64,000 bases of DNA from Coriobacteriia bacterium (lineage in GTDB: Bacteria; Actinomycetota; Coriobacteriia; Anaerosomatales; Anaerosomataceae). A program made the translations under genes and the position numbers. A model generated the notes under the pieces. That model was given only the letters and a program-made list of their open reading frames with translations. It was not told where the DNA came from and made no database searches. The stretch lies in NCBI GenBank assembly GCA_030652115.1, contig JAUSBK010000007.1:248001-312000 (forward strand), in the 5' to 3' direction. Shown here one piece after another: positions 3,253 through 58,756 of this stretch (position 1 is the stretch's first letter; the number at the start of each line of letters is the position of its first letter).

Positions 3253-3407
3253 GCTGTCCTTTCGCCGTCACCGCCCATCATAGCGGCCTGAGGCGGGGCT
3301 GCGTGTTCAGAGTGGGGGCGAGTGTGCCGATATCAAACGGCATGTGACCCGCGAGGGATGGGGATTCGAATTCGGCGTCGCGCGCGCCGACAAGGAGGCA
3401 CGCTCAG

Positions 3408-5117: not shown

Positions 5118-5140
5118 TCGTCCCTAAGGCGTGATCGTCA

Positions 5141-5168
5141 CGGGCGGGACTCAGCCGAGACCCGCCCG
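5141..5168 (+). terminator. GC-rich hairpin downstream of pilT
   Basis: CGGGCGGG at 5141-5148 pairs with CCCGCCCG at 5161-5168, with an inner CTC/GAG pair around a four-base loop. No run of T follows, so termination is inferred from position only. Confidence 0.45.
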
Positions 5169-5192
5169 CGTGCGTTGGAGAGGAGCCGCGTG

Positions 5193-5621
5193 ATGGATGT
5201 CGTCAACGTGAAGTGGAACGGCAAGCGCCGGTTCGTTGGCTGGGACGAAGCCGGACACGGTGTGGTCATGGACGCGCCGGCGGGTCCCACGGCAGATGGC
5301 AGCGGCGCGCGTCCCGTCGAACTCGTCCTGTATGCGCTCGCCGGGTGTACGGGCATGGATGTCATCTCCATCCTCGAGAAGAAGCGGCAGACGGTCACCG
5401 ACTTCAGCCTGGTCGTCCACGGCACCCAGCGCGAGGACGGCTACCCGCACATCTACAAGCGGATCGAGGTCGAGTACATCGTGACCGGCGTCGACGTCAA
5501 GCCGGAGGCGGTCGCGCGAGCGATCGAGCTTTCCGAGGAGAAGTACTGCTCGGTGCGCGGCATGTTCGGTCCTCAGGTCGAGGTCGTGACGAGCTACCGG
5601 GTCGTCGAGGCGGAACTCTAG
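5193..5621 (+). CDS. OsmC/Ohr-family peroxiredoxin-like protein
   Basis: A 142-residue OsmC-family protein. This family reduces organic hydroperoxides with two cysteines; here they appear in LAGCTGMDV (about residue 57) and in EEKYCSVRGMF (about residue 115), the usual positions. The Arg expected near the active site cannot be fixed by eye. The ATG at 5193 follows GGAGAGGA at 5177-5184; a GTG immediately before it is the alternative. It heads a compact cluster: one base separates it from the glycosyltransferase, followed by BshB1-like and BshC-like genes, which suggests a role linked to thiol chemistry (inference). Confidence 0.85.
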   Translation: MDVVNVKWNGKRRFVGWDEAGHGVVMDAPAGPTADGSGARPVELVLYALAGCTGMDVISILEKKRQTVTDFSLVVHGTQREDGYPHIYKRIEVEYIVTGVDVKPEAVARAIELSEEKYCSVRGMFGPQVEVVTSYRVVEAEL

Positions 5622-5622
5622 C

Positions 5623-6330
5623 GTGACCTCGAGCTGCCCTGACGCAGTCGTGCTGCCCGTCTACAACGAGGGCGGCACGGTCTCCAGCGTCCTGGACGCG
5701 GTGCGGCGTGTCTACGACGGCATGGTGATCGTGGTCGACGACGGCTCCGATGACGAGACGCCGCTCGTACTTGCCGAGCGCGATGACATCGTGGTGATCG
5801 CCCACGCCGCCAACGCAGGGTACGGCCGCTCGCTCATCGACGGCTTCGCTGCGGCGCTCGCCGCTGGCGCGGATGCAGTCGTGACGATGGACTGCGACGG
5901 ACAGCACGAGCCGGCCCATATCCCTGAGTTCCTGACGGCGCTCGGTGACTGCGACATTGCGTCGGGGAGCCGCTATCTGGGGGCAAGTCCCGTGGTGGGG
6001 ATGGCCCCTCCGTCGCGTCAGGACGTCAACCGCCGCGTCACTACGGCGATCAATGCGGCGACTGGCTGGTCGCTCACCGACGCCTTCTGCGGCTTCAAGG
6101 CGTATCGCGCGAGCGCGTTGCGCTCGATGCGACTCACCGAGCCGGGCTACGCCATGCCGCTCGAGCTATGGGCCGAGGCGCATCGGGCCGAGCTGTGCGT
6201 GATCGAGCTGCCTGTCGCGCGCATCTACTTCGACGGCGACCGGTCCTTCGGCCAGGACCTCGATGATCCCGACCGCCGTCTCGGGTACTATCTGCGGGTG
6301 TGGGAGCATGCCCTCGCAAGGGAGGCCTGA
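5623..6330 (+). CDS. GT2-family glycosyltransferase, DPM1-like
   Basis: A 235-residue cytoplasmic GT-A glycosyltransferase. It begins with LPVYNEGGTVSSVL, then VVDDGSDDET for nucleotide binding and DCDGQHEP carrying the metal-binding DxD-like acid, followed by SGSRYL, the order seen in dolichol/polyprenyl-phosphate mannosyltransferases. No membrane segment is evident. The GTG at 5623 begins one base after the OsmC stop; its own TGA overlaps the next start by one base. The sugar donor and acceptor are unknown. It could feed a lipid-linked sugar pathway or glycosylate the precursor used by the deacetylase downstream, but the second idea is only positional. Confidence 0.85.
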   Translation: MTSSCPDAVVLPVYNEGGTVSSVLDAVRRVYDGMVIVVDDGSDDETPLVLAERDDIVVIAHAANAGYGRSLIDGFAAALAAGADAVVTMDCDGQHEPAHIPEFLTALGDCDIASGSRYLGASPVVGMAPPSRQDVNRRVTTAINAATGWSLTDAFCGFKAYRASALRSMRLTEPGYAMPLELWAEAHRAELCVIELPVARIYFDGDRSFGQDLDDPDRRLGYYLRVWEHALAREA

Positions 6331-7010
6331 TGGCAGACGTCGTGTGCGTCGGTGCGCATCCTGACGATGTTGAGATCGGGATGGGCGGTACCGTGGCCGC
6401 GCTCGCCGCGCGGGGTGCGGATGTGCTGATCGTGGACCTCACCGACGGCGAGCCTACGCCGCACGGGACCCACGAGCGGCGGATGGCCGAGGCGGCCGAG
6501 GCCGCGCGCCTGCTCGGATGCAGGAGAGTGACGCTCGAACTCCCCAACCGATACCTGTTCGACAGCGTGGAGGCTCGCACCGCGCTTGCCGAGGTGCTGC
6601 GCGCCGAACGGCCGACGGTGTTGTTCGTCCCGTATCCGGAAGACGCCCACCCGGATCACCTCGCCGCGTCGCGGATCGCCGAGGCCGCCCGGTTCTACGC
6701 GAAGTTCACGAAGACCGACATGACCGGCGAGCCGCACTACGCCGCGCGCGTGTACCGCTATATGGCGGTCCATCTGCGGCTCGTGCGTGAGCCGTCGTTC
6801 CTCGCCGACATCACCGCCACGCTCCCTGCCAAGCTCGCTGCGCTCGGTGCGTATGGCTCACAGTTCGGCGACAACCCGGCGAACACCGGGATCGTCGAGC
6901 TGATGGAGCAGGGCGCCCGCATGTGGGGCGGCATCGGCCGGGTCGGCGCCGCCGAACCCTTCTTCGCGCTCGAGCCGCCGGTCGTGCGCTCCGTCCTCGA
7001 CCTCATCTAG
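6330..7010 (+). CDS. PIG-L/LmbE-family deacetylase, BshB1-like
   Basis: A 226-residue zinc deacetylase of the PIG-L family. AHPDDVE supplies H10 and D13, and DAHPDH supplies H110, the metal ligands in BshB1. The stretch around HLRLVREPSFLADIT and the ending resemble BshB1, which removes acetyl from N-acetylglucosaminyl-malate during bacillithiol synthesis; MshB of mycothiol synthesis is the other relative. The ATG at 6330 shares a base with the upstream TGA and has GGAGG at 6321-6325. Because a BshC-like gene follows nine bases later, a thiol-synthesis role is favoured over general polysaccharide deacetylation, but no BshA-type glycosyltransferase is in the window. Confidence 0.82.
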   Translation: MADVVCVGAHPDDVEIGMGGTVAALAARGADVLIVDLTDGEPTPHGTHERRMAEAAEAARLLGCRRVTLELPNRYLFDSVEARTALAEVLRAERPTVLFVPYPEDAHPDHLAASRIAEAARFYAKFTKTDMTGEPHYAARVYRYMAVHLRLVREPSFLADITATLPAKLAALGAYGSQFGDNPANTGIVELMEQGARMWGGIGRVGAAEPFFALEPPVVRSVLDLI

Positions 7011-7019
7011 GGGCCGGGG

Positions 7020-8570
7020 ATGACTGTCCACGAACGCCAGAAGCCGCCAGCGGGTCACGGCGAGGTGCTGTGCTCGCCTCCGTTTTCGACGTGGCACGAG
7101 CTCGTGGAGCGCAACTCAGCCGCGGTCGCCGGGTGGCCCGCTCCGCTGCGAGCCCTGCGCGAGCAGGCACGCTCGGAGACGGTTGCCGAAGCGGTCCGGT
7201 TCAGCGGCTCTATCGGCGTGTCGGGCGAATCGGCCTCGGCGGAGACCCCGATCGTGATGACCGGTCATCAGCCCGAGCTGTACCACCCGGGCGTGTGGGT
7301 CAAGGTCTTCCTCGTGGACCGGCTCGCCGAGGAGATCGGCGCGCTCGGGCTCGATCTGGTCGTCGACACCGACGCCGCCGAGCTGGTGGCGCTCCGCGTG
7401 CCGTGCCTGCGCGACGAGGTGCGCGTCTGCGAGGTGACGCTCGCCGAAGGCGGCCCGGGCGTCGCATACATGCAGACACCCGTGCCGACGGGCGAAACGC
7501 GCGCGGCCTTTCGGGAGAGCGGGATCTCCGTGCTTGAGGGGCTGCCGGCGCCGGCGCTTCGTCGGCACTTCTCGACGTTCTGTGACGCGCTCGATGCCGC
7601 TGCCCCGGACGCGACCGACCTGGGCACGCTCATGACAGCGGCGCGTCGCCGCTACGAAGCACCCGCGCAGACCGCGTACCTCGAGGTGCTCGCGTCGGCG
7701 CAGTCGCGTCTGCCGTCGTATCGCGCCTTCGCAGCCTCGTTGCTCTGCGATGCTTCCCGCTTCCGTGTGGTCATGAACGATGCGCTCTCGGAGTATCGGA
7801 CGCGCACGGGTTCGCGCTCGGCGGCGCAGCCCTTCCCGGATCTTGCGGAGCGCGACGGTCGGGTCGAGGCGCCGTTCTGGCTGCTCGACGACGGACGGCG
7901 CCGCGCGGTGAGCGTGGGTTCGGACGGCACGTTGTTCGCCGACGACGAGGCCGTGGCGGCACTCGGCGCTACGACCGATTCGGCCGCTCGCGCGCTCGAG
8001 AGACACGACCTGCTGCTGGCTCCCAAGGCGCTCACGCTCACGCTGTTCCAGCGCCTGTTCGTGGCCGATCTGTTCGTCCACGGCACCGGCGGCGGGCGCT
8101 ACGACCGCGTCACCGATGCGGTCATCGCACGCTACTACACCATCGAACCGCCGCAGTTCGCGATCGCCTCGATGACGCTGCTGCTCCCCCTCGGCGCGCA
8201 CGTCGTCTCCGACGAGGACGTGGCCGAGGCCGGGCGGCGGGTCAACCGCTTCGAGCACAATCCGGACTCGCTGCTGCCCGAGGTGGAGTTCGACTCGGCG
8301 CCGGAGCGAGTCGAGGCAGAGGCGCTTGCGGCGCGTAAGGCCGAGGCAGTGGCGGCGATCGCGGCACCGGGCGCTGACCGCAAAGAGCTCGGCAAGACCA
8401 TCCGCGACCTCAACGCGCAGCTGTCCGCGCTTCTCGAGCCGGTGGGGCAGGTGCTCCGCGAATCACTCGAACGGGTCCGCGCCGAGCGTAAGGCCTCCTC
8501 GGTGCTCACCGATCGCACGTATCCGTACTGCCTCTGGGACCCCCGCGAGGTCATGGATAAGGTGCGGTAG
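7020..8570 (+). CDS. Large BshC-like protein, possible thiol-synthesis enzyme
   Basis: A 516-residue protein. After a ~75-residue lead, TGHQPELYHPGVW matches the position and style of the TGQQ-type motif of BshC, the putative cysteine-adding enzyme of bacillithiol synthesis; a DTDAAE motif replaces the usual GEDHD stretch. Later come LFVHGTGGGRYD, and a C-terminal coiled coil (about 425-490) as in BshC. Length is close to BshC (about 540). The identity between this family and true BshC looks low by eye, so function is inferred mostly from these motifs and from the adjoining BshB1-like gene. The ATG at 7020 is preceded by a G-rich ribosome site. It is the last gene of the OsmC cluster. Confidence 0.6.
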   Translation: MTVHERQKPPAGHGEVLCSPPFSTWHELVERNSAAVAGWPAPLRALREQARSETVAEAVRFSGSIGVSGESASAETPIVMTGHQPELYHPGVWVKVFLVDRLAEEIGALGLDLVVDTDAAELVALRVPCLRDEVRVCEVTLAEGGPGVAYMQTPVPTGETRAAFRESGISVLEGLPAPALRRHFSTFCDALDAAAPDATDLGTLMTAARRRYEAPAQTAYLEVLASAQSRLPSYRAFAASLLCDASRFRVVMNDALSEYRTRTGSRSAAQPFPDLAERDGRVEAPFWLLDDGRRRAVSVGSDGTLFADDEAVAALGATTDSAARALERHDLLLAPKALTLTLFQRLFVADLFVHGTGGGRYDRVTDAVIARYYTIEPPQFAIASMTLLLPLGAHVVSDEDVAEAGRRVNRFEHNPDSLLPEVEFDSAPERVEAEALAARKAEAVAAIAAPGADRKELGKTIRDLNAQLSALLEPVGQVLRESLERVRAERKASSVLTDRTYPYCLWDPREVMDKVR

Positions 8571-8653
8571 CCCTCGCGCCAGAGGGTGTTATCATGTACG
8601 GCACCGCCCCGTGACGGGTGCGGTACGACCGTCACGTTGAAAGGATTCACATA

Positions 8654-8830
8654 ATGGGTAAGCCGGTTGTCGATCCCGATCTGTGTACCGCCTGCGGCAT
8701 CTGCGTCGATGAGTGCCCCACGAGCGCCCTCGACCTTGAGGATACGGCCATTCTCGCCCGCCCGGATGACTGCAGCGAGTGCGGGACCTGCGCTGATGTG
8801 TGCCCGAACGAGGCCATCACGCTCAAGTAG
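8654..8830 (+). CDS. 2[4Fe-4S] ferredoxin
   Basis: A 58-residue bacterial ferredoxin with two classical cluster motifs, CTACGICVDECP and CSECGTCADVCP. It carries low-potential electrons and is a plausible partner for the Rnf complex encoded at 15.8-20.8 kb. The ATG at 8654 follows GAAAGGA at 8639-8645. The gene stands alone: 83 bases after the preceding cluster, with a possible TATCAT -10 at 8590-8595 and an imperfect GTAC-bounded inverted repeat (about 8595-8625) in its leader, and a strong terminator directly behind. Confidence 0.93.
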   Translation: MGKPVVDPDLCTACGICVDECPTSALDLEDTAILARPDDCSECGTCADVCPNEAITLK

Positions 8831-8849
8831 CTCCGAAGCGGCGCAAACG

Positions 8850-8879
8850 AAGGGCCGGATCCGACGGGATCCGGCCCTT
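8850..8879 (+). terminator. Strong bidirectional terminator, ferredoxin / plsY
   Basis: A perfect 13-bp stem (8850-8862 with 8867-8879) closes a four-base GACG loop. It separates the convergent ferredoxin and plsY genes and could serve both. Short T-rich ends flank it on either side. Confidence 0.85.
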
Positions 8880-8897
8880 TCGCTTATCGGTCAGCGG

Positions 8898-9617
8898 TCA
8901 GCCCCTCGGCCCGCTGCGGTCGTTGATGTAGAACTTCGGCTCCTGGCCACGCAGCAGCCCCATGAAGCGTTTGTGGTGAGCAAGGTACACCAGCGCGCCC
9001 ATCACGAGTGCGAACCACCAGTCGGGCGAGCGAAGCACCAGCGCGGTCACCGGTAGCGTGACGGCCGCGATCACCTGGCCTGCCATCATGTAGCGCGTGA
9101 TGGCGATCGTGAGCAGTCCGACGACGACGACTGCGACGAAGTACCGCCAGTCGTACGCAAGCAAGGCGCCCGCGCCGGTAGCGAGCCCCTTGCCGGTCCG
9201 CCCGAAGCGGCGCTTGATGATCGCCATCCAGCACGAGTAGTTGTGGCCGATAACGGCGCCGGCCACCGCGCCCATCGGTATGAGCGCGAGTGAGGGATCC
9301 GGCAGTTCCGGTGCTGCAACACCGACGGGAACCAGCAGCGTGTTGAGCGCGAACCACTTCGCCACAGCCACCGGGAGAACGCCTTTGCTGATGTCCGCGA
9401 GCATCGCGACGGCGAACCAGCCCCACGACCCGGTCGTCCGCCGAACGTTCATCGCGCCCACGTTGCCCGTGCCGTGCTCGGTGACGTCCTCTCCAGTCAC
9501 GAGGTGAACGATGATGTATGCCCAGGGGATCGAGCCGAAGAGGTAGGCTCCCAGGAGCGCACCGAGCGCGATGAGCACGGTCTGGATGGTGAGGCCCTCG
9601 AGGAGTGTCGCGCTCAC
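8898..9617 (-). CDS. plsY: Glycerol-3-phosphate acyltransferase PlsY-like membrane protein
   Basis: A 239-residue polytopic membrane protein. PlsY moves an acyl group from acyl-phosphate to glycerol-3-phosphate, the first step of phospholipid synthesis. The family motifs are recognisable: SIPWAYI followed by EHGTGNVGAMNV, and a GKGLATGAG motif after the IGHNYS segment. Motif 2 is looser than in E. coli PlsY, so a divergent paralogue is possible. The GTG at 9615-9617 is preceded by GAGGAG inside the end of the lipid-kinase gene; upstream in-frame starts would overlap that gene. It forms a two-gene lipid operon with the kinase, 7 bases apart. Confidence 0.8.
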   Translation of the reverse strand: MSATLLEGLTIQTVLIALGALLGAYLFGSIPWAYIIVHLVTGEDVTEHGTGNVGAMNVRRTTGSWGWFAVAMLADISKGVLPVAVAKWFALNTLLVPVGVAAPELPDPSLALIPMGAVAGAVIGHNYSCWMAIIKRRFGRTGKGLATGAGALLAYDWRYFVAVVVVGLLTIAITRYMMAGQVIAAVTLPVTALVLRSPDWWFALVMGALVYLAHHKRFMGLLRGQEPKFYINDRSGPRG

Positions 9618-9624
9618 GAAGGGC

Positions 9625-10530
9625 TCATCTCCTCGGCACGACGCACTCGATGGCGCCCGGCAGGATCGAGATCGCGAACCGCCGGTCCACCATGACCTCT
9701 CCATCGAGCTGCGCCGGCATCGGCTCGTCGCTCTCGATCACGATCGTGCGTCGTCGCGACATCTGTACGACCTTGAACTTCGTGTGTTTGCCGAAGATCA
9801 CGAAGGGGAGCCGGACGAGCGCGCCCGGAAGGGATAGTGGGTCGATGGTGCAGACTTCGAGGAGTCCGTCGTCGGCCACCGCATCCGGAGTGATGAAGAA
9901 TCCGCCGCCGTACGTGGGGCCGATGGTCGCCGCGACGATGAGGAGGTCGTCTTCCACCGGCTCGGCGCCGTCCCAGGTCACGCGGACGTGATGCGGGTAG
10001 AGCTCGTGGAAGAGCACGTGCAGCAGAGCGGTGAGGTACAGCCAGAGTCCCGACCGCTTGGTGGTGAACTTGTACTCGACTGCCTTCGCGGTGACTCGTG
10101 CGTCGAGACCGGCCGCGAACGAGTTGTTGAAGTAGACGCCGTTGCACAGGCCGACGTCGAACCGGTGAAGCTCGCCGCGGGTGAGCGCGAGGGTCGCGTC
10201 GGCCACATCGGCGGGGATGCCGAGCGTCCGGCGCGTGTCGTTGCCGCTTCCGGTGGGGATGAGGCCGAGCGCGGGGCGATCGCCCTCGGGGCGCCGCATG
10301 ATGCCGTTCAGCACCTCGTGGACGGTGCCGTCACCGCCGACGGCGACGAGCACGTCATAGCCCCTGGCGGACTCGGCAAGCTCGGCCGCGTGACCCATAT
10401 GCGTCGTCAGGACAAGGTCGTGCGGGGCGCTCTGCAGAAGCTGCCTGATCGCGGGAACGAGCGTCTCGGTCTCGCCGTGCTTTGCGGCCGGGTTCACGAT
10501 GAGAAGCATCTTGCCGGAGGTCATCGTCAT
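9625..10530 (-). CDS. Diacylglycerol/lipid kinase family protein (YegS/DagK-like)
   Basis: A 301-residue lipid kinase. The N-terminus begins with LLIVNPAAKHG, the nucleotide-binding GGDGT is at 65-69, and PTGSGND at 92-98 completes the DAGK catalytic signature. The C-terminal beta-sandwich domain ends in a typical FAISILPGAIECVVP. It probably phosphorylates diacylglycerol and returns it to phospholipid synthesis, consistent with plsY directly downstream; a sphingosine- or undecaprenol-type substrate cannot be excluded. The ATG at 10530 is used. Confidence 0.88.
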   Translation of the reverse strand: MTMTSGKMLLIVNPAAKHGETETLVPAIRQLLQSAPHDLVLTTHMGHAAELAESARGYDVLVAVGGDGTVHEVLNGIMRRPEGDRPALGLIPTGSGNDTRRTLGIPADVADATLALTRGELHRFDVGLCNGVYFNNSFAAGLDARVTAKAVEYKFTTKRSGLWLYLTALLHVLFHELYPHHVRVTWDGAEPVEDDLLIVAATIGPTYGGGFFITPDAVADDGLLEVCTIDPLSLPGALVRLPFVIFGKHTKFKVVQMSRRRTIVIESDEPMPAQLDGEVMVDRRFAISILPGAIECVVPRR

Positions 10531-10557
10531 CGCCTGTCGTCGCGGGCCTTGGGGGCT

Positions 10558-10586
10558 AGGATAGCGGGCGCGGGAGCGGTTGGAAA
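10558..10586 (-). promoter_or_regulatory. Putative promoter of the lipid-kinase/plsY operon
   Basis: On the minus strand TTTCCA (10586-10581) and TATCCT (10563-10558) are 17 bases apart. The -35 shares its bases with the -35 of the divergent tRNA-Arg promoter. Confidence 0.45.
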
Positions 10587-10608
10587 CCGTCGGAGCGTGT
10601 GCTACTGT
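10580..10608 (+). promoter_or_regulatory. Putative tRNA-Arg promoter
   Basis: TTGGAA at 10580-10585 and TACTGT at 10603-10608 with a 17-base spacer. Transcription would begin about eight bases before the mature tRNA. Confidence 0.6.
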
Positions 10609-10622
10609 TCTCGGACGTCCCC

Positions 10623-10698
10623 GCCCTCTTAGCTCAGGGGATAGAGCGTCTGCCTCCGGAGCAGAAGGTCGTAGGTTCGAATCCTACAGAGGGCGCCA
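10623..10698 (+). tRNA. tRNA-Arg (anticodon CCG)
   Basis: A 76-base cloverleaf with encoded CCA. The acceptor arm GCCCTCT (10623-10629) pairs perfectly with AGAGGGC (10688-10694). The D arm has GCTC/GAGC, the anticodon stem TCTGC/GCAGA encloses loop CTCCGGA, giving anticodon CCG that reads CGG, and the T arm contains GTAGG-TTCGAAT-CCTAC. The discriminator is G10695. Confidence 0.97.
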
Positions 10699-10710
10699 GC
10701 ACACACACGA

Positions 10711-10742
10711 GAGACCGGTCCGCGTTCGCGGGCCGGCCTCTC
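10711..10742 (+). terminator. Hairpin between tRNA-Arg and the EF-G-like gene
   Basis: GAGA pairs with TCTC and, after a two-base bulge, CCGGTCCG pairs with CGGGCCGG around a short TTCG-containing loop. It lies between convergent genes and may end both transcripts. Confidence 0.55.
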
Positions 10743-10764
10743 GATCGCTTCTCGCAGGATCGGG

Positions 10765-12828
10765 CTAGTGCCCCTCGGCCCGTTCCTTCTGGTGATCGTC
10801 CACAAGCTTCTTCTGGATGTCCCCGGGCACCTGCTCGTAGCTGTCGATCGAGAGTGCGTACGTGCCGGTGCCACTGGTGATCGACCGCAGGTGCGGCGAG
10901 TAGTGCACGACCTCGGCGTACGGCGCCTGCGCGCGGATCGTCTGCACGCCCGCCTCGGAAGAGTCCATGCCGAGGATGCGTCCACGGATCGAGCTGATGT
11001 CGCCCATGACCGCACCGGCGTGCTCGTCGGGCACGTCGATCGTGAGCGTTGCGATCGGCTCGAGGATGACCGGTTCGGCCTTCTCGGCGGCGGCACGGAA
11101 GCCGATGCGGGCCGCGGTCTTGAACGCCATCTCGTTGCTGTCGACGGCGTGCATCGAACCGTCGTACACGGCGACCTTCACGTCCTGCACGGGGTAGCCG
11201 GCGATGGCACCTGAGGTCATCGTGTCCTGGACGCCCTTGTCGATCGCGACGATATAGGGCTTCGAGATGCGTCCGCCGACGATCTCGTCGACGAACTGGT
11301 AGCCGCCACCGGGGTTGGGTTCGAGTCTGAGCCAGCAGTCGGCGAACTGGCCGGACCCGCCGGTCTGCTTTTTGTGGCGGCCCTGTGCCTGAGCGGTCTT
11401 CCGAATGGTCTCCCGGTAGGGGATGCGCATATCGATCGTCTCGGCTTCCACGTGGAAGCGGTCGCGTAGGCGGTTGAGCAGCACGTCGATCGCGGCGTCG
11501 CCGTAGGAGGTGATGACCGTCTGATGGGTCTCCTCGTCGCGGCGCATCGTGAGCGACGGGTCCTCATCGACCATCGCCTTCAAGGCCGAGCCGAGCTTGT
11601 CCTCGTCGGCCTTCGTCTTGGCGACGATCGCGACGGGGTAGAGCGGCTCCGGCAGGGGCAGGGGAGCGAACGCGACGTCTCCCTTGGCCGAGAGCGTGTC
11701 GTTGGTGAGCGTGTCGGCGAGCTTGGTGAGCACCGCGATGTCGCCGGCGGGCGCGGCATCGATGTCGGCGGTCTCCTTGCCCATCATCTTGAACACGTGC
11801 GCCACGCGCTCCTTCTTGCCGGTGCGCGAGTTCACGAGTTCCTGACCCGGCTTGAGGGTCCCGGACACGACTTTCACGAAGTTCATCCGGCCGACGTACG
11901 GGTCCGAGAGGGTCTTGAACACATGTACGGCTACGTCGCCGGTGGTCGAGATGTGCACCTCGTTGCCGGCGGTGGTCATCAACGGGCCGTGGGCGGTGGG
12001 TTGCGGGAAGAAGGTCACGATGTCGTCCATGAGGTCCTCGACGCCCTGCATCGTGATGGCTGAGCCCACGAACACCGGGATGAACAGCGACTGGGCGATA
12101 GCCTTGTCGAGCAGGGTCTCGAGCTCTTCCTGCGTCAGTCGCTCGCCCTCGAGGTACTTCTCCATCAGCTCGTCATCGGCCTCGGCGACGAGCTCGCACA
12201 ACTTGTCGCGGGCGGCCTCGGCTGCGTCGGTCATATCTGCCGGGATATCGAGGACTTCTTCCTTGTCGTCCTCGTGGTGGTACGCCTTCATGCGGATGAT
12301 GTCCACGACGCCGCGGAAGTCGGCCTCGGCGCCAAGCGGTAGCTGCACGGCGCCCACGCGGTGTCCGAACGCCTTCACCAGGCCGTCCATCGCCGCCTGG
12401 AAGTCGGCGTGCTCCTTGTCCAAGCGGTTGATGAACACCGCTTTGGCGATGCCCATCTGAGTGGCGAGCTTCCAAAGCTTGCGCGTCTGTACCTGGGGAC
12501 CGGCGACCGCGTCCACCACGAACAGCGCCATCTCGGCGGCCTCCATGCCGGCGATCGCGTCTCCGAGGAAGTCCGCGTAGCCGGGGGTGTCGATCACGTT
12601 GATCTTGACGCCCTCGTGCTCAACCGGCGCCATCGAGAGATTGAGGGTGATCTTGCGACGGACCTCTTCGGCCTCGTAGTCGAGGTTCGAATGGCCGTCG
12701 ACAACGCTACCGAGGCGTTTGGTCTGTCCCGCCATGAAGAGCATCGCCTCGGCGAGTGATGTCTTGCCGGAATCTCCATGGCCAAGCAGGACGACGTTGC
12801 GGACGTTCTCCGTGCTGGACGCTCCCAT
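10765..12828 (-). CDS. Elongation factor G-like GTPase (FusA2-type)
   Basis: A 687-residue translational GTPase with the EF-G domain order (G, II, III, IV, V). The P-loop is GHGDSGKT (about 16-23) rather than the AHIDAGKTT of canonical EF-G; G3 is DTPGY and G4 is NRLD instead of NKxD. Domain IV (around RIPYRETIRKTAQAQGRHKKQTGG) is complete. These differences place it with the second, FusA2-like group whose exact role is unclear and which is thought to act alongside the main EF-G. The ATG at 12828 has GAGGAGG eight bases upstream; a GTG two codons earlier is too close to that site. The gene stands alone, convergent with tRNA-Arg. Confidence 0.88.
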   Translation of the reverse strand: MGASSTENVRNVVLLGHGDSGKTSLAEAMLFMAGQTKRLGSVVDGHSNLDYEAEEVRRKITLNLSMAPVEHEGVKINVIDTPGYADFLGDAIAGMEAAEMALFVVDAVAGPQVQTRKLWKLATQMGIAKAVFINRLDKEHADFQAAMDGLVKAFGHRVGAVQLPLGAEADFRGVVDIIRMKAYHHEDDKEEVLDIPADMTDAAEAARDKLCELVAEADDELMEKYLEGERLTQEELETLLDKAIAQSLFIPVFVGSAITMQGVEDLMDDIVTFFPQPTAHGPLMTTAGNEVHISTTGDVAVHVFKTLSDPYVGRMNFVKVVSGTLKPGQELVNSRTGKKERVAHVFKMMGKETADIDAAPAGDIAVLTKLADTLTNDTLSAKGDVAFAPLPLPEPLYPVAIVAKTKADEDKLGSALKAMVDEDPSLTMRRDEETHQTVITSYGDAAIDVLLNRLRDRFHVEAETIDMRIPYRETIRKTAQAQGRHKKQTGGSGQFADCWLRLEPNPGGGYQFVDEIVGGRISKPYIVAIDKGVQDTMTSGAIAGYPVQDVKVAVYDGSMHAVDSNEMAFKTAARIGFRAAAEKAEPVILEPIATLTIDVPDEHAGAVMGDISSIRGRILGMDSSEAGVQTIRAQAPYAEVVHYSPHLRSITSGTGTYALSIDSYEQVPGDIQKKLVDDHQKERAEGH

Positions 12829-49884: not shown

Positions 49885-50973
49885 GTGAACCGGCGCATCA
49901 GCCCTAGCAGGCGGGGGCCGCTAGTCGCTTGCATAGTCTCGCTCGCAGCGCTGTTGTGGGCGGGTAGTGCGCTGTCCGCCTACGCGTTCGCTCCGCCGAT
50001 CGGCGGCCTCGGAACCGGGACGACCGAGCCCTTCAATCTCTTCGACTGCGACCAGTGTCACGCCGCCGACAGCCAGGCGCCGCCTGCAGACGGGAGTGGC
50101 CCGCACGGCAGTTATGCGACGACCACCTCGAAGTGCTCGGTGTGCCATGACGTGCACAACGCGCCAGCGGGCGGAATCCTACTCCTGCGCGGGGCGACGG
50201 TGAGCGCCGCCTGTCTCACGTGTCACGACGGCACGCAGAGCGGCATCGGGCCGTATGACACGATCGAGGCGCACGGCGGCGTTGTCGCCGCCGAGCACGA
50301 GACCGACGTGACGAATGTGATCCCCGGAGGGTCAGTGAACCTGACGGGTTCGTTGGGCTGCTCCGACTGCCATAGCGTTCACGGTGCCAACACGGTCGCG
50401 CCGTTCCTGCGCGACTCCGGCTTCTCCGGCACCACCTACATTGGCGGCGCGGACGCGTACGTGACGTCAGACTGTCTGCTTCGAGCGGATGTGAACGGTG
50501 CATCGGTGGCCGAGTACGGCGCGCTGTGGTGCGCCGCCTGTCACGACGAACGACACTCCGGTTCGGCGACGACGATCAACCACCCGGTGGACGACGCCAC
50601 CGACTGGGGCTACGGGGATGTCGTGTCTACGGTAACGCTGGACTCCTGGCGTGCCGGTCCGTATGACGGTTTGGGCAATGCCATCGGCATGGGGCGCACG
50701 AACGGCGGCTACATCATGGCTCCGGCGGCCGAGGACGGCGACGGGCGCGTTGTAACGCGGCGTGATCCGATGTGTCAGCAGTGTCACGAGGACGCGCGGA
50801 ACGTGACCGAGATCTTCAGCGCCGACTACACGTATCGCGGGACCGATCCGTGGAACACGCCGATCAACCCCGAGTTCGTCACCTTCCCGCACCAGACGAC
50901 CAACGCGACGATGCTGGTCGAGCAGTACGACGACCTGTGCCTCAACTGCCACCCTGTCTCTGGGCTCCCGTAG
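49885..50973 (+). CDS. Secreted heptaheme c-type cytochrome
   Basis: A 362-residue protein with a Sec signal (about 1-34, ending SAYA) and seven CxxCH heme sites starting at C55, C84, C110, C159, C216, C297 and C352. Several are followed by histidines (CHDVHNAP, CHSVHG) as in small multiheme electron carriers. No membrane helix follows the signal, so it is probably released or wall-associated. GTG at 49885 has GAAGGGA upstream. It is 43 bases before the giant cytochrome and likely passes electrons to it. No known named family was recognised; a substrate enzyme (for example nitrite reduction) cannot be excluded, but the CXXCK hallmark is absent. Confidence 0.88.
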   Translation: MNRRISPSRRGPLVACIVSLAALLWAGSALSAYAFAPPIGGLGTGTTEPFNLFDCDQCHAADSQAPPADGSGPHGSYATTTSKCSVCHDVHNAPAGGILLLRGATVSAACLTCHDGTQSGIGPYDTIEAHGGVVAAEHETDVTNVIPGGSVNLTGSLGCSDCHSVHGANTVAPFLRDSGFSGTTYIGGADAYVTSDCLLRADVNGASVAEYGALWCAACHDERHSGSATTINHPVDDATDWGYGDVVSTVTLDSWRAGPYDGLGNAIGMGRTNGGYIMAPAAEDGDGRVVTRRDPMCQQCHEDARNVTEIFSADYTYRGTDPWNTPINPEFVTFPHQTTNATMLVEQYDDLCLNCHPVSGLP

Positions 50974-51016: not shown

Positions 51017-54000
51017 TTGCAGATGCGTACGCGTCGCAGCCCCGGCAGGCGGTGGATCTGGCTTACAACGCTTGGCGTGGCGCTGATTGTCGCGTGCGCG
51101 ACCGTTGCGTTTGGGTGGATCACGTTCGGAGACGTTCCGACCCTGACAGGCAGAGGCTCGCTGTCAGGCCTGGGAACGGGCCACGTGAAGGACGTGCCTG
51201 GTTCCCCGGATATGGCCACGGAGTCCGCGGAAGGGCAGTCATCGAATTCCCGGGCAGGGCTCGCGCCCACACCCCCGGACGGTTCGTCATCCGAGCCTCG
51301 TGTGACCACGCAGAAGTCCGACAAGCCCAAGGACAAGGTCAAACCGCCAAAAGGCGGCAACCCCGAAGACCCGCCGGTCGACCCCGAAGATCCCCCAACC
51401 GACCCCGAGGACCCGCCGGTCGACCCCGAGGACCCGCCGGTCGAACCTGAGGACCCACCGGTAGCCGAGGCCCCCTCGGCGCCGGTCCTTGTCGCCTGTA
51501 CGTCCGGGGACATGAAGGACGTCATCACGTTCGAGCTCTCGGCTGGCGGTCCCGTGTCGTACTTCGCGCTGCTTCGCTCAGCCAGCGCCGATGGCGAGTA
51601 CTCCGTGGTGGCAACGGCGTCCGCAGAGGCTCGCGTCTTCTCGTATCCCGTGAGCGAGACGGGCGCCGCGTTCTACGTCGTGAGCGCGAGCGGCCCCGGC
51701 GGCGAGAGCGGACCGAGTGAAGCAGCCGAGAACTCGCTGGTCGCGATAGCAGAGTCGGTGTCGCCGGAAGGACGGGTGCTCGCCTCATCGAACGGCGAGG
51801 TCGTCCTGAGCCTCCCCGCGGGGGCGTTCGGCGCCACCACCGACGTCGGCGTGACCGAGGTGTCCGCTTCTCCCACGGGCGGGCTCATCAGCCTGTCGGG
51901 CGTCTACGAGATCACGCCGTCCGGTGCGCTGTCGGCGCCAGCCGTTCTCTCGGTGCGCTACACGCTTGCGGTGACCCACTACCAGGTCGTTCAGACACTC
52001 GTGAACGCCGCCGAGATCATGACCTACGATGCACCGGCGGGCGGGTGGATCGCCGGGGCGAGTGGTGTCACGGCCGACGGTACCTACCTCAGCGGTACGC
52101 TGGATCACTTCAGCTACTGGACCGGTGCGGTCGTGGAGCCTCACGGCACCGCCGAGACGACGTACTGTTCGGACGGCGGCATCTGCCACGACCTGAGCAC
52201 CTATCCCGGCTCAACCGTGCGCTACGACACGCGGGACTCGCAAGTCTGCTTCAACTGCCACGGCAACACCTCGGCAGCGCTTCCCGCAGCCGGGGCGAAC
52301 GGCCCGAACGTCGAGGGGCAGTTCTATCAGTGCGACGGCCAGACGCGGCCCGTGGGCTCGACCATTCACCCGGTCGCCACCGGTGACCTGTACTGTACGA
52401 TCTGCCATGACCCGCACGCCGACCCGGCCGCATCGCCCGGGCTGCTGCGCGCGTGGGACCCGCTGACAGGCACCTACGTTCAGGGAGGGTCGGGCTCGGG
52501 GCCGGGCGACCGGTACTGCTGGGCGTGCCACGGCACCGTCGTGAACAAGCGCACGAACTACTACGTGCCGAACTACTGGGCAAACAGCGGCGGCGACCGC
52601 AAGACCGGGTACGTGGGCACACCGCACGCGACGATCGAGACGGACAGCGACGTCACCTGCACCGCATGCCACGCGGAGCACGGCTCGGATGAGGCTGCGC
52701 TGGTACTCGATGAGTTCGAGACGCCCGGTGGCACGGTGGCGGTCTCGCGCACGAGCGACATCTGCCTCGCGTGCCACGCTGCCAACACGACGGTCTACCC
52801 GGGAAGTGAGACTGCAGGGGCACAGAAGCACGTGACCGTCACATCGTCCACGAAGGCGCTCACTCGCTATCCCGGATCGACTGCCGAAGGTCAGGGCTGC
52901 ACCGGGTGTCACGAGCCGCATGGCAAGGGCGCCGGCACGTCCTACACGTGGGTGGGTGGGCGCGATCTGTGCCTCACCTGCCACGACGCGGCCGGTCTCA
53001 CCTATGGCGCCGACTACTCTTACCAGGGCCCGTCGGCGTTCGCAGCATCGGGGCACGATGGTCTGACCGGCGCGCTCGGGTACTTGAGCATCGATGCGAC
53101 ATCAGACGATTCTGCGGCATGGCAGTCGGCGACGCTCCCCACGCCGTCGTCCCCTGGAACGCCGATCGATGCGAGCGGTCTGTCGGCGATCGAATCCGCG
53201 GACGGTGTGCTGCTCAGCACCGCCCTGCAGACGGTGACCGGCTCTTCGGACTACCAGATGTACCGATTCAAGATGCCGGCTGACAAGACCGCCGTCGCCA
53301 CCGTCTCCCTCACCTGGAAAGGCTACGGCGAGGCGGCGCCGGGATATCCGGTCACGGTATCGGCGTGGAACGAGGGCGCCGACGGATGGGACCAGATCGA
53401 CAGCCGTGTGCTCGGCTCACCGCAGCAACTTGTGCTGAATCTGACGCCCGCGAACCATATCGGCACTGACGGGTACGTGTACGTGCTCGCGCAGGCGAAG
53501 TACGTCTACGACGCGGCGATCGTCTCGGGGCCGACCGTCAGCGCTCCGTACGCGTGGAATCCGTCGCTCTACATGGTGCAGTGGACGACGGCCGGACTCG
53601 CCAGCAGCCTCGTCGACTACGGGGCGACCACGGCGTATGGCACCACGGTCGGCAGTGCCGACGAGCGGGTCACCAATCACGTGGTGTGGCTCACGATGCC
53701 CGCTGGCCTCACGCACATGCGCGTGAGGTCGGCGTCGTCTTTCGGCGAGAGCGCCGCATCGGCCGACACCATCATCACCTATCCGAAGCCGACGATCGCG
53801 TCCACGAACCCGTCCAGCCTGATCTGGTACGACGTGCCCGTCTCGACCACCCTGACGTGGAACGCGATGTCAGCCCCTGGCGGCCCGTTCCAATACCGCG
53901 TGCAGGTGCTGTTCGGCGGCTCGCAGGTGCTGATGACGGATTGGACGACGAGTCTCTCGCACGTGTTCTCCACGAGCACGCCGGGCGGCTACAGCTGGCG

Positions 54001-57000
54001 CGTGGAGGCGCGTGATGCCTCACAGACCTCGTACGGCTGGTCCGCCGCCGCCGCGTTTGGCGTGGCGGACGGCAACTACACCGGTTCGTGTCCGTTCCTG
54101 TTCACATGGGACGGCGAGAAGATGGCCTTCGAGGCGGACCTCTTCACGGCCGCCCGTATAGGCGGGCGAAGCGCCAACGGATTCCTACAGCCGAACCCGA
54201 ACGACGCCTATGTGCTGGCGCACGTGCCCGAAGCGAAGGACGGCTCCCTGGAGTTCAGTCTCGTTGAGGAGCGCTACGAGGTGAACTACCTCGACTACCT
54301 CGCGCTCTACGCGGTTGACGCGCCCGTCGGCACGACCGTCTACGCGCAGAAGGCGGTCGCGGGTACGCGGGCGTTTCCGCCGCTCGCATCGGCGATCCAT
54401 ACGGTGCGCGAGCTCACCGCGCCGGTGTCCGTGGTGCGGACTGACACCGGTGCCGATGTGAGCTTCCAGGTCGCTGCCGACGACGGGATCTGCCTGGAAC
54501 TCAGCGAGGATCGGGAAACGACATTCACCTACAAGACGATCGAACTCGATCTTGGCCCCGGAGCGGCAAGTGCCCCACAGGTGAAGATCGTGATGGACGC
54601 GGTCACCGAGTTCCCCGTGACACCCGCAGGCATCGCCCGTCGGTTCACGTTCGGCCTACCGTCCAAGCTTGAGGTGCAGAATCCCGACGGCACCTGGAGG
54701 TCGGTCCCGTCCTCGGTCGGCGCCGTGCCGGTGGCTCCCGAGTTCACGCGTCCGTACGTGTTCGATCTCACTGATGCCATGGCTGGCACCACCGGGCGCG
54801 TACGCTTCACATTCCTGTTCCGCACGCTCATCGATTCGATCGGCGTGGACCTGACCGCCGACGAGCCGGTGACGATCACGCCGGTTGAGCTCACCGGCGC
54901 CGACCTGCGATACCACGGCGTGGACGAGGAGCTCGGCACGGCTGGCGATGCGCACTTCGTCTACGGTGAAGACCTCACGGACGGGGCGTACTTCCCGGGG
55001 ATGTACACGCGCTTCGGTGACGTATCCGAGCTGCTGGCCGAGAGCGACGACAAGTTCGTGATCATGGGGCAGGGTGACAAGATCGCTCTGAACTTCGCCG
55101 TGCCGGACGAACCTGCCGAGGGTGCCGAGCGCTCGTACGTCGTGAGCGTGCTCGGCTACTACAAGGACCTCAAGACCGACGTGCCGCGCACCGTTGAGCC
55201 GCTGCCCTTCGCGGCGATGAGCAACTACCCGTACCCCGCCGAGGAACACTACCCCGACGACGCCGAACACCAGGCGTATCAGGCAGCGTACAACACGCGG
55301 GTCGACGGCAGGTCTGAGGCGATCGGCGCCACGAGCGCGCTCGGCACTATGCTGGAGGGTGCCGTCGCGGCGCTCCGGGACGCTCTGCCGCTCGCAGCGG
55401 CGTCCACCGGTGAGTCGGACCTCGTCGCGCACCGGTCGCTCAACACCGATCTGGTGACGCTCGAGGTGGCAGTGACGTCGACAAGCGGCGCCGGCGGGGA
55501 GTGTGGCGTGTGCCACGCGATGCACGGCTCAACCGAGCAGGGCCAGCCGCTCACCGGAGGCCGCATCGCCTCCGACGGCCGCACCTGCACCGCCAACGGC
55601 TCCGGCGGCTGCCACGACAACGCCGCGAACTCGGCGTCGGGCATCGACATCCGGGCCCAGTTCACCGCGAGCGCGAGCCCCACGGCTCACCACGATGTGC
55701 TGCTCGCAGACCAGGCGGCAAGCGGCGGCAAGACAGCCTGTGCGGACTGCCACAATCCACACCTGAACAACGGAACGAACAAGATATCGGACCCGGACGA
55801 TATGTCCGTCGCTCTCGGGACGTCGCTTGGATCGACGATCGCGTCGTCCGGCGAGGTGTATCTGCTTGCGGGTGCGAAGCACGACGGCAACGCGCCCGTG
55901 ATCTCGAGCGTCGTTCTGAATGGGGCAGGCGCGCAGTATGCCAGCCCGTTCATCACGTGGACGACCGACGAGCCGGCTACGTCATACATAGAGTGGGGCC
56001 TCACGACCGACTACAGCGAGACGCCCTTCGGCAACGGCACCCTGGCGGTAAGCCACTCGGTCCAGATGACGGGACTCGTGGCCGGTACCACCTACCACTA
56101 CCGGGTTCGCAGCACCGATGCCCTGCTCAACACGTCCGTCTCCGGCGACTACACCTACACGCCTGTGGCGCCGCCGCCAACGCCCACGATAACGGATCAC
56201 ACGACGTTCTCCGGCGGTGGCTATGGCCCGATCCCCATCACGATGACCGGGGGAACCGTGACCGCACCGGATGGCCACGCGGTCCAGTACCAGTTTCAGA
56301 TCAGCAACCTTGGGGCGTGGACGTCGGGATGGCTCAACACGCCCTCGTGGGACACCTCGACCTCGGGGCTGCTCTTCTACAACGGCAACTACACAGTGAA
56401 GATCCGAGCGCGCGATGCCGTCGATACGCAGGCGGTCTCCGCGTGGTCGGCGAGCGACGCGTTCAACATCACGCTCGCCGCCTATCCGCCTTCGTCGTGT
56501 CCCTTCGTGTTCGTCTGGGACGGGGACAGCTTCAGCTTCGAGGCCGACATCAGCACCACCGGCAAGCTCGCGGAGAAGACATCCACGGGGTACTCGAGGC
56601 CCGATCCGCGGGACCGCTACAAGTTGATGACGGAGCCGCAGGTCAAAGACGGCGCTCTGGAGATCAGGCTTGTCGAGGAGCGGCTGGAGATCGATTACAG
56701 CGACGAGATCGCGCTCTACGCGGTCGATCTTCCTGAAGGCGTTGACGTGTACGCAGAGAAGGGCGTCCGCGGGGCGCCCGGGCCGGTTCCACCGGAGGGC
56801 CTGCACACGGTGACTGACCTGCGCACGCCGCCGACGGTGCGGACGGACACCGGCGAGTCGGTGACGGACCTCGTGACCGAAGCTGACGGCGTGACACTCG
56901 TGCTCAACGAGGACCGAGAGAACTTCGAGTACAAGACGCTCGAGATGGACCTCGGTGACGTCCGGGACGCTTCGCAGGTGAAGATCGTCATGAACGCTCA

Positions 57001-58756
57001 GACTGCCCGGCCGCTCACCACTGCCGGCATCGCACTCCAGCGGACCTTCGCAGCTACCACGATCCTCGAGGTGCAGGACATCTCCGGGCAGTGGAGGACG
57101 GTGCCGACCACCGAGGCGACGCTCCCGAACGCCATGGAGTTCCCCCGCAGCTACGTGTTCGAGATCGGGCCGGCCATGCACAACACCACCGGGAAGGTCC
57201 GCTTCACGTTCCTCTTCAAGACGTACGTCGACATGATCGGGTTCGATACCTCGGCGGACCTGCCACTCGAGGTCACCGAGGTCCCGCTTGCGTCGGCGGA
57301 GCTTGGCTACCATGGCATCGATGGGCGCACCGGCACCGGTGAGGTCTACGACTTCGTATACGGCGACCCCGTGAACGCATTCCCGTTCCCGCCGGGCAAC
57401 TTCACCAAGTACGGCGATGTCACACCATTGCTGGACGGCGTGGACGACAAGTTCGTGATCTGGGGCCCGGGCGACGAGCTCGTGCTGCGATTCGACCCGC
57501 TTGCCGCGCCCGCCGAAGGCCTGAGCCGCGAGTACGTCCTGTTCAGCGAGACCTACTACAAGTCCCAGAAGTCAGACACGCCATTCGTGGTCGAGCCGCT
57601 GCCGTTCGCGGCGATGAGCAACTTCCCGTACCCGGCGGACGAGCACTATCCCGACGATGCCGAGCATGACGCGTATCTCGCCGAGTGGAACACGCGCGTG
57701 GACGGTGCCGGCCCGGTTTCGGCCGTCTCGAGTGCATCGTCAACCGAGTGGCTCGACTATCACGTGATCACGCCGCTCATGTATCAGGGCATGTTCTCAG
57801 TGGATACCGACTATGCGGCAGTGCGCACACTCGTGGGAACCACGGCGACCTACGTCCAGGCTGCCGCGGGCTGGCAGAGCCAGTCGGCCGAGGGCAGCAA
57901 GCCCACGCCGTCCGCGCCGGGCGCTGCCGTCTTGTCCGCGACGCTCGATGCGGCCGACAGCGACGATGGCGCCTACTGGCAGACGGACCTCACCTCGACG
58001 GACTCGGTGTGGAACTGGCAGGTGATGCGGTTCGACCTCGGCGCGGATGCGCTGAGCACGCTGAAGGCCCTCTCCGTTGTCTGGAACGGGCACGGTGAGC
58101 CCACTGCGGGTTATCCGACCGCGGTCTTCATTTGGAATCCGACCACCAGCGCGTGGGAGGAACTGGGAAGGTTCGTGTCCGGGACCGACCGCACAGTCTC
58201 CATCGAGCGACGCGCGCTGAGCGAGAGCTTCTGCCTCAGGTGCCACGACGGCGCGCCGCCAAGTGGCGTCGTGTTCCCAGCCGGGAGCAGGAACGTGGGT
58301 GCCACGTGGGGCAGCGTATCCGGTGACTTCCACGGTGCAGGCTCGGGCACGGGACTCGGCTCGGCTATCGCTGCGCCGTACGCGCGGGGTCAGGCGGCGA
58401 TCAACTGCGGTGCTTGCCATGAATCCCACGGCAGCGCGAACGTGTACCACTTCCCGACGTGGATCAATGGGACCTCGGGAATCAGCGTGCCGAGTGCGTC
58501 CGGGGCGGGTGCTGCGGCGGTGTGCGGCGCCTGTCACGTGACCGCAGGCGGGACCACCTACTCCCTCGTCGACGAGTATCACAAGGGGTGCGTGGATTGT
58601 CACAGGGCCGACCACGGCCAGTGGACATTCGTTGGAACCGACTGCCTCTCGTGCCACACGCATGGTGGCACCTGGGACCATCAGTGCAACTACGGCACGA
58701 ACTACAACGACTGGGGTTGCCACTGTGGCGTCCCGGGACCGTACAAGACGTTCTAG
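51017..58756 (+). CDS. Giant secreted multiheme cytochrome with duplicated beta modules
   Basis: A 2579-residue extracellular protein. Signal/anchor about 11-36 (with an IVAC lipobox-like site); PEDPPV-type repeats about 112-150; a ZU5-like domain about 245-375. Fourteen CxxCH sites fall in three groups: seven at 411-656, two at 1496-1579, five at 2406-2547; extra CX5CH (384), CX7CH (1524) and CX10CH (2557) occur. Two modules of about 405 residues, 1025-1432 and 1828-2231, are clear duplicates (each starts CPF-x-F-x-WDG and ends in PLPFAAMSN...NTRVDG), each after Fn3-like repeats. A second duplicated ~100-residue domain lies at about 695-815 and 2275-2400. Start: TTG 51017 or ATG 51023, site AGGAG. 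Probable extracellular electron conduit (inference). Confidence 0.85.
51355..51468 (+). repeat. PEDPPV-coding proline-rich repeat
   Basis: Roughly six units of 18-24 bases coding for Pro-Glu-Asp-Pro-Pro-Val/Thr, near the start of the giant cytochrome. It would form an extended acidic spacer crossing the cell wall. Confidence 0.8.
54089..57712 (+). repeat. Two ~1.2-kb copies of a large protein module
   Basis: Copy A spans 54089-55314 and copy B 56498-57712, with about 1.2 kb between. They share WDG...FEAD openings, a DKFVI...GD core and the EHYPDDAEH ending. Similarity is clear at protein level, weaker at DNA level, so the duplication is old. Confidence 0.85.

Follow-up and report, generated by a model that had tools for sequence, protein, structure and literature searches.

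The window is the whole 64,000-nucleotide stretch of DNA that was analysed, taken from a genome of the order Anaerosomatales. It contains an open reading frame at 51017-58756 (plus strand) that encodes a giant multiheme cytochrome of 2579 aa, with TTG as the start codon and an ATG two codons further in. A gene for a smaller heptaheme cytochrome, hereafter the partner, lies upstream on the same strand, separated from the giant gene by 43 bp. The features are as follows, with the basis of each assignment in brackets.

49885..50973, +, partner gene, 362-aa secreted heptaheme c-type cytochrome (seven CxxCH; OmcS/OmcE-like by profile)
51017..58756, +, giant multiheme cytochrome gene (ORF call; CxxCH count; orthologs)
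51053..51118, +, N-terminal hydrophobic helix, residues ~13-34 (the protein's highest hydropathy windows start at residues 13-20)
51356..51466, +, acidic Pro-rich linker, residues ~114-150 (sequence; similar linkers in orthologs)
51470..52132, +, two pre-heme beta domains, Fn3-like and then unnamed, residues ~152-372 (alignment)
52142..53056, +, heme patch 1, seven CxxCH and the irregular C384-X5-C390-H391 (motif count, alignment, Pfam)
53111..53440, +, smaller beta domain copy 1, residues 699-808 (duplication)
53459..54061, +, Fn3-like pair 1, residues ~815-1015 (part of the duplicated unit)
54086..55309, +, WDG module 1, residues 1024-1431, unnamed domain with a putative discoidin/CBM32-like core (model, alignment)
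55430..55882, +, heme patch 2, CxxCH at 1496 and 1575 and CX7CH at 1524-1533 (motif count, alignment)
55889..56470, +, Fn3-like pair 2, residues ~1625-1818 (duplication; Pur_ac_phosph_N at 1643-1707, below Pfam's cut-off)
56495..57703, +, WDG module 2, residues 1827-2229, 51% identical to module 1 (module comparison)
57863..58207, +, smaller beta domain copy 2, residues 2283-2397 (duplication)
58232..58726, +, heme patch 3, five CxxCH and the irregular C2557-X10-C2568-H2569 (motif count, alignment)

The chain starts with the hydrophobic helix, the Pro-rich linker and two beta domains, which are followed by heme patch 1 and the smaller beta domain. After this come an Fn3-like pair, WDG module 1 and heme patch 2, and then a second Fn3-like pair, WDG module 2, the smaller beta domain again and heme patch 3. 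The initial annotation had noticed duplicated beta modules, and these were confirmed: a large unit of ~630 residues occurs twice (815-1444 and 1608-2243, 44.5% identity, E 4e-155), and the smaller beta domain forms a second pair (699-808 and 2283-2397, 31% identity, E 1e-15). Its description of Fn3-like domains between the hemes held in part, as the duplicated segments are present but their Fn3 assignment comes from weak Pur_ac_phosph_N and fn3 matches in Pfam. The two pre-heme beta domains had no Pfam match and were named by eye, and the whole protein matched no PDB sequence up to E 0.1.

The N-terminal helix, which may be either a signal peptide or a membrane anchor, is the predicted export signal of the giant, and clear signal peptides were recognized by eye in the shorter orthologs. 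Inspection by eye recognized no wall-anchor motif in the giant. In the alignment, acidic Pro-rich linkers like that of the giant were present in L053, L054, L066, and L069; L055 and L068 had Pro-rich segments. The helix and linker, the upstream heptaheme gene and three irregular heme sites had been overlooked in the initial annotation, as had the conservation of the layout in other genera.

Fourteen CxxCH sites were found in the giant, grouped 7/2/5, at residues 411, 460, 501, 548, 583, 628, and 652 (patch 1), 1496 and 1575 (patch 2), and 2406, 2464, 2503, 2525, and 2543 (patch 3). The patches are separated by heme-free gaps of 844 and 831 residues, in agreement with the three separate groups, about 0.75-0.85 thousand residues apart, that had been read from the sequence at first. 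In 20,000 shuffles of the giant protein, CxxCH occurred 0.016 times on average, with a maximum of 2. The sites were further compared in an alignment of 11 homologs, giant included, of which the other ten were 38-81% identical to the giant. All 14 canonical sites were kept, except for four lost in L068. Three irregular CH sites also had an invariant C and H, with an odd spacing in the giant. The site C384-X5-C390-H was CxxCH in 7/11 homologs and CX3CH in 2/11, and C1524-X7-C1532-H was CX6CH or CX7CH in 11/11. The site C2557-X10-C2568-H was CxxCH in 5/11 and CX3CH or CxCH in others, with the first Cys absent in L061.

In orthologs, the irregular sites correspond to CxxCH or to sites with a short spacing, so that the giant likely carries 8+3+6 = 17 hemes. 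Patch 1 contained exactly 8 further His for its 8 proposed hemes, each present in 11/11 or 10/11 homologs. For the three hemes proposed in patch 2 there were five well-conserved extra His; for the six of patch 3, five were invariant and another two were conserved in part. Given the irregular CX5-10CH sites, counting motifs would seem to give too low a heme number here. Pfam Paired_CXXCH_1 matched the giant at 9.7e-22, and Mtrc-MtrF_II-IV matched at 6.5e-11, above the cut-off, in patch 1 only. The structure prediction for patch 1 with the smaller beta domain had a pLDDT of 32 and was unusable; therefore, no heme geometry was taken from it.

The ~405-residue WDG module was compared with protein families. 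Fifteen module sequences had 33 invariant columns in common, and Asp, Glu, Gly, and Pro were frequent among the invariant residues. A profile over these 15 members found no credible family in Pfam, and no PDB sequence matched the module; weak matches to TruB_C, retinol-binding protein, and viral capsids (Pfam, PDB sequences, PDB folds) were at chance level and were rejected as relatives. The initial annotation had asked whether the architecture already has a name; it is absent from Pfam, NCBIfam, and PDB. No enzyme family matched the module, and no characterised protein of the same architecture was found. An AlphaFold2 model of the module reached a pLDDT of 77 and a pTM of 0.81, with residues 115-267, in its middle third, modelled as a jelly roll resembling discoidin/CBM32 (VIA Z 9-11, rmsd ~3, ~120 residues). 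As Foldseek gave no E below 1e-3, the discoidin/CBM32-like core, which would be of sugar-binding type, is a lead, not proof. The module was also fused to type IV pilin N-termini in Omnitrophota and to FG-GAP/UnbV-ASPIC proteins in Armatimonadota and relatives, and joined to an 11-heme protein in a Nitrospirae MAG. Its recurrence on diverse cell-surface proteins suggests a binding or display part rather than a catalytic one.

The two modules of one gene were 100.0% identical over 1234 nt in L054 and 99.84% identical over 1265 nt in L055, and in both genes the DNA identity fell to background at the module borders. Between L054 and L055, the modules were 18% different. The twin modules of other genes had DNA identities of 82, 79, 78, 67, and 64%, and the second module of L061 and L065 remained divergent. 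In the module tree, several twins paired up with the other module of the same gene; a separate old type comprised the single module of L068 together with the second modules of L061, L064, and L065. As the twins are 100% and 99.8% identical in DNA in two genera, homogenisation appears to take place within the gene, most simply by repeated gene conversion between the copies of an old duplication; alternatively, MAG assembly error may account for the identity.

The WDG module was found in 19 of the 398 genomes of the class, all 19 in the giant's own order. Where contigs allowed reading, the cytochrome layout was present in ~15 of these, covering at least 10 genera of one actinobacterial order (Anaerosomatales, OPB41); two other members of the order carried the module in non-heme proteins only. 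The distribution is patchy, since 3/5 genomes of the giant's own genus were without the module. UBA6100 (83%), HGW-Actinobacteria-1 and 1MN72D_65_13 (46%), all from Actinobacteria, were among the database loci. The related records are subsurface actinobacterial MAGs.

The orthologs occur at two types of locus, both within a single neighbourhood of leuS, comEC, holA, (rpsT), lepA, hemW, and hrcA. The lepA-side copies (giant, L053, L054, L055, and L068) have an N-terminal extension and an adjacent heptaheme gene, and the two pre-heme beta domains are restricted to this type in the alignment. The leuS-adjacent copies (L056-L061 and L064) have a plain signal peptide followed directly by heme patch 1, with no heptaheme gene adjoining. 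The extension is missing from about half of the orthologs, and the mature protein of these therefore begins at heme patch 1. Two orthologs, L055 and L064, contain frame breaks.

The genome of the giant is rich in multiheme genes, with 33 Paired_CXXCH matches and ORFs with up to 50 motifs, and encodes the system II cytochrome c assembly factor ResB. Members of Anaerosomatales are found widely in the subsurface. This order of Coriobacteriia has been described as rich in multiheme cytochromes; its cultured members, among them one that obligately reduces Fe(III), carry 17-18 of them (PMC9686372).

The partner gene adjoins the giant gene in L053, L054, L055, and L068 and neighbours it in L067. When a profile built from nine family members was compared with PDB chains, OmcS came first (2.4e-5) and OmcE next (1.6e-4), the heme motifs adding to the score; the single partner sequence gave a chance-level match only, so the nine-member profile was needed. 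The alignment reaches beyond CxxCH, for example, in xCHTVH...LLxxATxSxxCLxCH and WCAxCHxxxH...HP. Because the heme motifs contribute to the profile score, the partner is called OmcS-like and not OmcS itself. It resembles OmcS/OmcE in its blocks of heme motifs but has seven hemes, not six or four. OmcS itself is marked by six hemes, heme ligation between subunits and the formation of filaments. A Coriobacteriales genome obtained from an anode biofilm has been reported to encode an OmcS homolog with 28% identity and all six heme sites (PMC7399161).

The partner family had matches in 70/398 genomes, with the strong ones nearly all inside the order. It is multi-copy and order-wide, and three further good copies were found in the giant's genome. 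In G119, the lepA-side heptaheme gene lies ~110 bp before lepA and the giant is absent, indicating that the partner does not need the giant. As, in addition, the orthologs at the leuS locus have no OmcS-like gene beside them, the two are not an obligate pair. Consensus promoter and terminator scans around the gene pair gave nothing useful; therefore, gene spacing is what speaks for co-transcription.

Among known systems, MtrC and OmcA, the surface decaheme cytochromes of Shewanella, also alternate beta barrels with pentaheme domains; each has two beta-barrel and two pentaheme domains with 10 hemes and is a lipoprotein on the MtrAB porin complex. The giant resembles them in alternating beta and heme domains but differs in its size (~2579 aa), three patches, duplicated Fn3+WDG units and monoderm host, and none of its neighbours that could be identified is a porin gene. 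Membership of the MtrC/OmcA family was rejected, given the three patches with 14-17 sites and the MtrC II/IV match in patch 1 only. Together with the alternating domains of MtrC and OmcA, this match means that the contrast with compact OmcS- and MtrC-type conductors drawn in the initial annotation was overstated with respect to MtrC.

The surface cytochromes of the OcwA, SmhB, and OmhA type in the Gram-positive thermophiles Thermincola and Carboxydothermus are likewise secreted multiheme cytochromes of monoderm metal reducers (PMC7829351), but no duplicated beta modules like those of the giant were found described for them. A search of the literature on Fn3, multiheme and Gram-positive found only the case of Geoalkalibacter ferrihydriticus, an iron reducer whose large cytochrome of 1,208 aa and 24 hemes has Fn3 fused to multiheme regions; there, Fn3 is N-terminal only, WDG modules are not reported, and the phylum is another (PMC12016550). 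A further layout with a WDG module, in Nitrospirae GWC2_57_9 (L006), comprises at least 11 CxxCH, a non-heme stretch that is Fn3-like by eye and then a WDG module (43% identical), but this module is single and C-terminal, and the record has a contig end and masked stretches.

According to the above results, the giant is probably a c-type cytochrome that is secreted to the cell surface and serves extracellular electron transfer, with three local heme patches and an OmcS-like partner. The heme sites and the secretion-type N-terminus support the first impression that an actinobacterium makes a multiheme cytochrome that is secreted or lies at its surface, and we regard the giant as a real and conserved kind of surface multiheme cytochrome, undescribed as far as our literature search went. 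The electron transfer would be that of an anaerobic actinobacterium, in iron-oxide respiration or similar. About 17 covalent, mostly bis-histidine hemes would be arranged in three patches (8, 3, and 6), each of which would relay or exchange electrons locally. The beta modules of the Fn3-like and WDG types would not conduct, would keep the patches away from the cell and may bind a mineral, a polymer or a partner protein. In its own genome, the giant would be held by the N-terminal helix, with the Pro-rich linker reaching through the wall, and electrons would pass between it and the OmcS-like heptaheme product of the gene immediately upstream.

Alternatively, the giant could be a base, socket or cap that tethers a filament of the polymerised OmcS-like partner to the cell or to minerals. 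The two genes lie 43 bp apart on the same strand and are neighbours in several genera, and the top PDB matches of the partner are OmcS/OmcE. Nevertheless, polymerisation of the partner is putative, the genes are not side by side in the leuS-side group, and G119 has the partner without the giant, which leaves this reading a small chance. It is just as tentative that the giant, with its twin binding modules, would serve in a monoderm actinobacterium as the base of an OmcS-like filament at the cell surface or as the end that touches minerals.

The initial annotation had proposed a beaded, wall-spanning wire in which electrons run from patch to patch along one molecule. The three patches on one chain, the monoderm host class and the Pro-rich linker of wall-spanning type would suit such a wire. 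However, hemes are absent from the only segment that looks wall-crossing (residues 13-150) and from both ~840-residue spacers, orthologs without linker or anchor exist, and no structure brings the patches together. Conduction through the chain would therefore require it to fold back, and the wire is unlikely.

A redox enzyme that acts on a defined soluble substrate, and whose hemes feed an active site in the WDG module, is very improbable: the large conserved modules with their many invariant residues would be compatible with it, but there is no enzyme family match, the module also occurs on pilins and FG-GAP/UnbV proteins, and its predicted core is of binding type. Chance motifs, a pseudogene or a misassembly, to which the TTG start and the frame breaks in L055 and L064 might point, are already refuted by conservation and can be dismissed, as the ORF is intact in several genera, the heme sites are kept down to 38% identity, and shuffles yield 0.016 motifs.

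These results indicate that the unnamed WDG module, common to pilins, FG-GAP/UnbV proteins and cytochromes, merits a family of its own. If true, the reading of the giant as a filament base would mean a way of anchoring nanowires that is so far undescribed in organisms without an outer membrane. For walled organisms of this kind, a conserved giant cytochrome encoded beside an OmcS-like gene is a concrete candidate for the export of electrons.

Near-identical intragenic copies of the WDG module, the unnamed domain of about 405 residues carried twice by the 2579-residue giant cytochrome, were found in relatives of the giant from two different genera (loci L054 and L055). DNA comparison within each gene revealed that the high identity stops sharply at the module ends, which could reflect either concerted evolution or an assembly effect.

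Twin WDG modules and other proteins with the module or a related segment
L054:7284-8517 and 9750-10983, twins in one gene, 100% DNA identity
L055, gene 4315-11250, minus strand, twins at gene nt 2965-4229 and 5419-6683, 99.84% DNA identity
L007:7329-9035, L007:5537-7324, L008:4212-5990 and L008:5996-7708, Omnitrophota pilin-like proteins with the WDG module
L071:6332-8239 and L072:6936-8921 (minus strand), ~640-aa non-heme proteins with a related WDG-like segment

In the Omnitrophota pilin-like proteins, whose genes come as neighbouring pairs (one in L007, one in L008), the module is the C-terminal domain, and there is an N-terminal methylation motif, Pfam-supported in two. The ~640-aa proteins belong to other members of the order and carry an N-terminal hydrophobic segment; Pfam gave no match for them.

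Two orthologs of the giant are split into two overlapping frames, L055 in the patch 3 region (about 4315-4627) and L064 in the patch 2 region (about 8829-8905), owing to either frameshifts or sequencing errors.

Short -TF (YKTF, DTTF, RTTF) or -W C-termini recur among the large cytochromes of this order (noted in window ORF 51017-58756, L053, L056, L061, L065, L068 and the L073/L075 multihemes); these ends may serve as a tag for sorting or for interaction.

The window's own genome (G000) contains further multiheme genes. An ORF with 50 CxxCH motifs (G000:C7:2-5581, locus L078) runs off the contig start, and in the cytochrome cluster L073 (G000:C8:82000-101000) three ORFs, carrying 14, 19 and 17 CxxCH motifs in that order, come after an OmcS-like heptaheme gene. 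ResB-type genes accompany them, and a 457-aa ORF, NHL-like as judged by eye, lies just upstream.

In the same-genus genome G119, an OmcS-like heptaheme gene (G119:C51:1427-2488) lies directly 5' of lepA with no giant cytochrome, providing a natural comparison case.
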